Shown here one piece after another: positions 14,445 through 35,136 of a DNA stretch of 35,939 nucleotides. Source of the stretch: a candidate division WWE3 bacterium (lineage in GTDB: Bacteria; Patescibacteriota; WWE3; UBA101185; UBA10185); contig QZJF01000017.1 of the NCBI GenBank assembly GCA_003599255.1, positions 1-35,939 of the forward strand. Direction: 5' to 3'. Under the pieces are notes generated by a model. The model saw nothing but the letters and a program-made list of their open reading frames with translations, was not told the DNA's origin and searched no databases. Within the stretch, counting starts at the first letter, position 1, and the number at the start of each line of letters is the position of its first letter. The position numbers and the translations under genes are program-made.

Positions 14445-14639
14445 GTGGACGACATTTTTGGGATTCCTACCATGGTAACTGCCGCTGCCGGGTGCATTAA
14501 TCAGCCTTGGTGGCATGAAGAGCTTATCCTGGAAAGTGAGTTTGATCTTTTCCGGGACAAGATGATCAAAAAGCATTCTGAGGAATGCGATTGCGGAGAA
14601 GATTTGACGGACCGGAACTTTACCATACTTCCGGACTGA
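14445..14639 (+). CDS. Small hypothetical protein (64 aa), GTG start, cotranscribed with the lipoprotein
   Basis: SD 'agaggaggcgaaagtg'; 13 nt after the upstream stop; terminator downstream. Confidence 0.7.
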   Translation: MDDIFGIPTMVTAAAGCINQPWWHEELILESEFDLFRDKMIKKHSEECDCGEDLTDRNFTILPD

Positions 14640-14661: not shown

Positions 14662-14716
14662 ACAGGACCTGTTTGCCAAAGAATTTTTTCCGGCATATTA
14701 GGTCCTGTTTTTTTTG
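14662..14716 (+). terminator. Intrinsic terminator overlapping the 3' end of the tag gene
   Basis: 'acaggacct ... aggtcctgt' perfect 9-bp stem then T8. Confidence 0.85.
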
Positions 14717-15325: not shown

Positions 15326-15365
15326 CCCTATAGCACTTGGATACAAGACGGTTCTGCGGTATAAT
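15326..15365 (+). promoter_or_regulatory. CTATAG-box promoter 7: ccCTATAG-cac-TTGGAT-17-TATAAT
   Basis: -35 15337-15342, -10 15360-15365. Confidence 0.85.
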
Positions 15366-15407
15366 TAATGCATCTGATACTATAACGGCACCAAGAAAGG
15401 AGTTAAA

Positions 15408-15539
15408 GTGAGAAAAATCTTCTCTGCTGTACGGCATGCAATCCGACATCTAAGGGGAGAATGTAACTGTAACTGTGCGGGCTGCGACTTGGGATATCAT
15501 TGCAATCGAGAATCACGAGGATGCAATATCAATCGCTGA
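15408..15539 (+). CDS. 43-aa Cys-rich microprotein, GTG start
   Basis: MRKIFSAVRHAIRHLRGECNCNCAGCDLGYHCNRESRGCNINR*; SD 'aagaaaggag', CTATAG promoter and terminator; absent from the supplied ORF track. Confidence 0.72.
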   Translation: MRKIFSAVRHAIRHLRGECNCNCAGCDLGYHCNRESRGCNINR

Positions 15540-15548
15540 TCCTGCACA

Positions 15549-15611
15549 ATGAAAGCGCTCAAATTCTGTTTAAGCTTTGCTTGAATCGGAAATGAGCGCT
15601 TCATTTTTTTA
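15549..15611 (+). terminator. Intrinsic terminator
   Basis: 'atgaaagcgctca ... tgagcgcttcat' then T7. Confidence 0.85.
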
Positions 15612-35046: not shown

Positions 35047-35136
35047 TGGCGGAGGGAGGGGGATTCGAACCCCCGTGCCCCTTTCAGAGCGCGTCGCTTT
35101 CCAGGCGAGCCGAATAGTCCACTCTCGCATCCCTCC
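35047..35136 (-). tRNA. tRNA-Ser (GGA)
   Basis: Minus strand GGAGGGA...TCCCTCC acceptor, long variable arm, anticodon loop 'cctGGAaag', 'GGTTCGAATCC' T-loop, encoded CCA. Confidence 0.93.

Follow-up and report, generated by a model that had tools for sequence, protein, structure and literature searches.

Analysis of a 35,939-nucleotide stretch of DNA (hereinafter, the window), which is part of contig C1 in the 1.1 Mb genome of a WWE3-type Patescibacterium, revealed a short gene for a cysteine-rich protein on the forward strand, at positions 15408-15539. The combination of a promoter, a Shine-Dalgarno sequence, a terminator and evolutionary conservation, all read from the DNA, strongly supports the identification of this open reading frame (ORF) as a genuine gene. 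The encoded protein belongs to a family that none of the searched family libraries contains and that is widespread across several bacterial phyla and phages. The members of this family probably are cytosolic microproteins that combine a metal-folded core containing six cysteines and one histidine (Cys6-His) with an interchangeable N-terminus, and function as binding adaptors or regulators.

The translation of the ORF, (V/M)RKIFSAVRHAIRHLRGECNCNCAGCDLGYHCNRESRGCNINR*, consists of 43 codons, with a GTG (not ATG) start and a TGA stop, and bears out the cysteine-rich product and the cysteine spacing, C-x-C-x-C-x2-C-x5-C-x6-C, that the initial annotation had reported. The gene is preceded by the -35 hexamer TTGGAT (15337-15342) and, after a 17 bp spacer, a perfect -10 hexamer TATAAT (15360-15365); a promoter scanner agrees on the -10 element and reports the -35 element at an offset position. 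The CTATAG palindrome (15328-15333), which had been taken for the -10 element, cannot play this role for the microprotein gene because it is located upstream of the -35 element; it is also found upstream of the homologue from the same genus. The two other proposed signals are present, namely, the Shine-Dalgarno sequence AAGGAG (15397-15402), with a spacing of 5 nt to the start codon, and an intrinsic terminator (15548-15610) that consists of a long hairpin followed by a U-tract and is far more stable than expected (minimum free energy -27.3 kcal/mol, z -5.29, equally stable shuffles 0 of 200). Both neighboring genes are on the opposite strand: the divergent tag gene for 3-methyladenine DNA glycosylase (PF03352, 14698-15273), which is retained next to the microprotein gene in a genome of the same genus, and a convergent gene for an HD-domain protein (PF01966, 15625-16425). 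The microprotein locus is monocistronic.

The homologue that adjoins tag in the same-genus genome (G001) was detected with an E-value of 4e-8 and carries TTGCGC-17-TATAAT at the matching place, GGAG and a GTG start. Across the 21 aligned core codons of the two genes, synonymous differences are saturated (pS 1.09) and nonsynonymous differences are few (pN 0.16); with the Cys and His codons removed, pS is 0.93 and pN is 0.26, values that retain some bias to conserved residues because the G001 homologue was found by similarity. Beyond the genus, a profile built from the first four members recovered homologues elsewhere in the phylum, with E-values of 2.6e-11 (G262) and 1e-7 (G162), each with start signals of its own. 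The coding RNA shows no unusual fold compared to shuffled sequences (z +0.91), and the locus matches no Rfam family, which argues against a noncoding RNA. The conservation with synonymous bias, together with the unstructured RNA, points to a coding gene. Thus, the proposal that an overlooked cysteine-rich microprotein with its own expression signals is encoded here is strongly supported, and neither of the two outcomes that had been named as fatal to it, namely, lack of synonymous-biased conservation or a noncoding RNA locus, was observed.

Short, cysteine-rich and often unannotated ORFs could alternatively function through the act of translation, whereby the cysteine codons attenuate expression of a downstream gene and the product itself is unimportant. 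Such ORFs are described in mycobacteria as cysteine-responsive attenuators (Canestrari 2020, as cited in PMC9094748). Whereas these attenuators regulate a downstream gene, the window gene has a terminator of its own and is followed by a gene on the opposite strand, and the same arrangement is seen in many relatives; for instance, at most of 26 mycobacterial loci, a homologous gene downstream is on the opposite strand. Furthermore, His, Gly and other residues are conserved, and the changes are concentrated in synonymous sites, with the encoded amino acids preserved. This interpretation is largely refuted and appears extremely improbable; the absence of a co-oriented downstream gene argues against a cysteine attenuator of this kind.

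Alignments of the family members show the common pattern C-x-C-x-C-x2-C-x4/5-H-C-x5-G-C in the C-terminal region of short ORFs. In the window protein, residues 19-39 (15462-15524) make up the motif core, C-x-C-x-C-x2-C-x4-H-C-x5-G-C, as delineated by alignments and by pattern scans with a decoy. The window protein carries the signature that defines the family here, C-x-C-x-C-x2-C-x4/5-H-C, close to the C-terminal end of its short ORF; in the G001 homologue, the last spacing deviates. The DNA pattern that we used for searching had the x4 spacing and fixed the Cys, His and Gly residues; the invariance of these residues in the pattern-found members is therefore by construction, and accordingly, the evidence for the motif rests on the profile-found members and on the decoy. 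Two members that were found with the profile, independently of the DNA pattern (L023 and L024), retain all six cysteines and the histidine. The histidine is part of the motif because its replacement with a glutamine codon in the decoy reduces the number of matching stretches in IMG/VR from 16 to 2. A six-cysteine pattern without the histidine was rejected as a search tool given that its output was mostly low-complexity junk; both family-like matches among that output do carry the histidine. Outside of the motif, glycine is frequently found just before the first cysteine, and the phage members in L025 and L027 have an added C-terminal H-x2-C. Non-motif codons of the mycobacterial members are under mild constraint (pS 0.38 vs pN 0.24).

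Scanning 62 members against Pfam, NCBIfam and PHROG produced no family above weak, sub-threshold similarity; the similarities of this kind were to FeoB_associated (PF12669), yeast metallothionein (PF11403) and phrog_28062. PF12669 gave the best sub-threshold Pfam match, over the clustered cysteines (E-values from 0.006 to 1.2), but the members score 9.9-17.2 bits (9.9 for the window protein) against a cut-off of 27. Moreover, in place of the membrane helix of PF12669, the window protein has the Arg/His-rich N-terminus RKIFSAVRHAIRHLRG with a net charge of +4, and its gene adjoins tag and the HD-domain protein gene rather than feoB. Small zinc fingers and knuckles resemble the family in being short Cys/His motifs that occur as standalone proteins or within bigger ones, but the core motif matches no Pfam zinc-finger family. 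No convincing chain match was found in a sequence search of the PDB. The AlphaFold2 model of the window protein is of moderate confidence (mean pLDDT 71, pTM 0.43) and, when used in a fold search of the PDB, yielded no match. A full-text literature search with the literal string CxCxCxxC, a narrow test, returned no paper.

A search of 84,980 species genomes with the DNA pattern identified 103 stretches, about 92 of which look real after 11 low-complexity, broken or unrelated-frame matches were discarded (L058, L062, L068, L086, L096, L102, L107, L134 and L138-L140). The bulk of these belong to Mycobacterium and Mycolicibacterium, with several types of paralogues; the other carriers are Acidobacteria, Chloroflexi (Anaerolineae and Kouleothrix), Alphaproteobacteria (Jiella, Bradyrhizobium and Devosia), Saccharibacteria, Pacebacteria, Sungiibacteriota and unnamed bacteria. 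In the mycobacterial genus around L054, 35 of the 99 sampled genomes, that is, about one third, carry one or two copies. In Patescibacteria, the distribution is sporadic, with clear matches in 6 of the 380 genomes, and one Saccharibacteria genome contains three copies. Two further matches, in G378 and G303 (E-values 0.002-0.007), were not counted: in one of these (L153), the His-Cys portion of the motif is missing, whereas the other (L154) covers just 11 profile positions. A match in a Klebsiella phage turned out to be antisense within a long coding sequence, and two matches in Rhizobium plasmids lack the motif. Three contigs titled Bifidobacterium breve MAG contain mycobacterial-type copies (L095, L133 and L137) and probably come from mislabelled or contaminated assemblies.

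Most of the 16 pattern matches among the viral contigs of IMG/VR are short ORFs of the expected kind; a tblastn-based search of viral contigs confirmed nothing, and tblastn probably is too strict for a query of 43 residues. In several viral contigs, the copies form tandem arrays and differ from each other: five in L028 (5148-5593), four in L025 (1461-2163) and three in L034 (3545-3880), the latter located directly after a run of tRNA genes. Several copies are also present in the neighboring pieces L027 and L038, and L028 and L034 encode 21 tRNAs each. Such diversified tandem copies suggest selection favoring variety. In one viral contig (L316, IMGVR_UViG_3300045978_000028), the motif lies within a 688-codon open frame (GGCSCDCARCDQGYHCRSGDDC), and a similar motif is present in gp95 of the Arthrobacter phage Edmundo; given this occurrence inside other proteins, we read the motif as a self-contained mini-domain. 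The large open frame of L316 possibly encodes a structural protein.

The tandem arrays, the tRNA-rich contigs and the sporadic distribution in Patescibacteria could be taken to indicate that the microgene is a phage-derived accessory gene of mobile origin that possibly targets a host or phage machine and was domesticated in cellular genomes. This interpretation overlaps with the metal-dependent adaptor and concerns origin more than mechanism. It seems rather improbable: the copy in the window is lodged between housekeeping-type genes (tag and the HD-domain protein gene), no phage gene was detected among the neighbors examined, synteny with tag is maintained within the genus, and about one third of the sampled mycobacterial genomes are carriers.

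The N-terminal portions of the family members are variable. Most of the patescibacterial and chloroflexal members and some of the phage members possess a short basic amphipathic N-terminus, and the mycobacterial members have N-termini of other kinds; because the N-termini differ between lineages, the core appears to be constant and the N-terminus to have been exchanged. In the window protein, the basic amphipathic segment spans residues 2-15 (15411-15452) and is predicted by AlphaFold2 to form a helix, with low confidence (block mean pLDDT 60-68). Its hydrophobic moment is 0.83 compared to the mean of 0.58 for shuffled sequences, 9% of which reach a value as high; for 5 of the 14 N-termini of this type that were tested, fewer than 5% of the shuffles reach an equal moment.

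At five loci from distant lineages, the microgene adjoins a gene for a homologous protein of about 190-250 residues. This partner gene is located downstream of and co-oriented with the microgene in Anaerolineae (L046, 6361-7047), Kouleothrix (L131, 3096-3845) and Pacebacteria (L143, 3367-4104), and is convergent with it in a further bacterium (L121, 7440-7997) and in Saccharibacteria (L310, 869-1465). A profile of the partner protein that was built without the L310 sequence recovers the L310 neighbor with an E-value of 6e-35. The four partner proteins scanned belong to no Pfam family, and a model of the partner protein produced no usable fold match. The partner is rare, being encoded in 4 of the 380 genomes of the phylum and missing from the window genome, and is thus tied to only a part of the family. 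Nevertheless, the partner gene offers a concrete handle on function.

This neighborhood invites the alternative that the microproteins are precursors of ribosomally synthesized and modified (RiPP) or bacteriocin-like peptides, with the N-terminus as the leader, the cysteine-rich region as the core peptide and the adjoining protein as a maturation, export or immunity factor. Compatible with this possibility, a Saccharibacteria member (L310, 1501-1707, reverse strand) has a 40-residue leader-like N-terminus that ends with LGG before the first cysteine, glycine often precedes the first cysteine in other members as well, the partner protein adjoins five copies in varied orientations, and a gene of the nitroreductase family precedes one copy only, that of G262. 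Nonetheless, neither the window gene nor L310 has a recognized maturase or exporter beside it, the partner is missing from the window genome, many copies are nearly leaderless, with several phage ones starting only 2-8 residues before the first cysteine, and the motif also occurs within a large viral protein. The window protein contains RGE in place of GG. A processed effector, one of the functions that the initial annotation had offered, is therefore the main rival, which we regard as unlikely, albeit not negligible.

The metal-dependent adaptor that we favor would work as follows. The 21-residue C-terminal core, with its six cysteines, one histidine and nearly fixed spacing, is predicted to adopt its fold in the reducing cytosol by binding one or two ions of a metal, with Zn(II) as the most likely candidate. 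The basic amphipathic helix at the N-terminus would dock this knuckle on an anionic surface, such as a membrane or a nucleic acid, or on a protein target, so that the microprotein would not be an enzyme but a binding adaptor or regulator that depends on metal. Metal binding, the identity and stoichiometry of the metal, docking and the target are all inferred. With its short, Arg/His-rich sequence, the N-terminus shows no apparent signal peptide, which suggests a cytosolic location, and in the cytosol, metal ligation is favored over disulfides. Taken together, the motif histidine, the lack of an apparent signal peptide and the presence of the motif within a large viral protein argue for metal binding among the functions originally listed and against a purely disulfide-rich protein.

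Metal binding could also serve to sequester excess zinc or copper, as in metallothioneins, instead of supporting a structural adaptor role. Like the bacterial metallothioneins SmtA and BmtA, the window protein is very small and Cys/His-rich, contains dense CxC motifs and is predicted to ligate metal in the cytosol, and three members show weak, sub-threshold similarity to PF11403 (best E-value 0.031). However, the E-values of these matches are not significant, the window protein itself shows no match to PF11403, and the prokaryotic metallothionein profiles of Pfam and NCBIfam match none of the 62 members. A zinc-finger fold of the GATA type is found in the bacterial metallothioneins described, among which SmtA binds four zinc ions (PMC10612145). 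The window family has just six cysteines in one compact spacing, and the near-fixed spacing and the conserved glycine exceed the needs of a loose metal sponge. Given also that the window copy adjoins no metal-homeostasis gene, a buffering function appears improbable.

It is quite possible, although we consider it less than probable, that the autonomous Cys6-His metal-binding microproteins found across phyla and, as diversified tandem arrays, in phages, along with the dedicated partner in a part of the family, constitute a small metal-dependent interaction or conflict system. Should the core prove to bind zinc, this autonomous metal-folded domain would be very small and unusually widespread. 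ORFs this short are often missed by gene finders, and so a family that spans phyla and phages can stay invisible. Because cultured Mycolicibacterium species have members of the family, a question that arose in Patescibacteria can be tested experimentally in a common laboratory organism.

The window contains a second small ORF on the forward strand (14445-14639, GTG start, 64 codons, ...ECDCGEDLTDRNFTILPD), which is preceded by AGAGGAGG; a repeat resembling a terminator is located at about 14664-14715. A tRNA-Ser(GGA) gene is located on the reverse strand of the window at 35047-35136.
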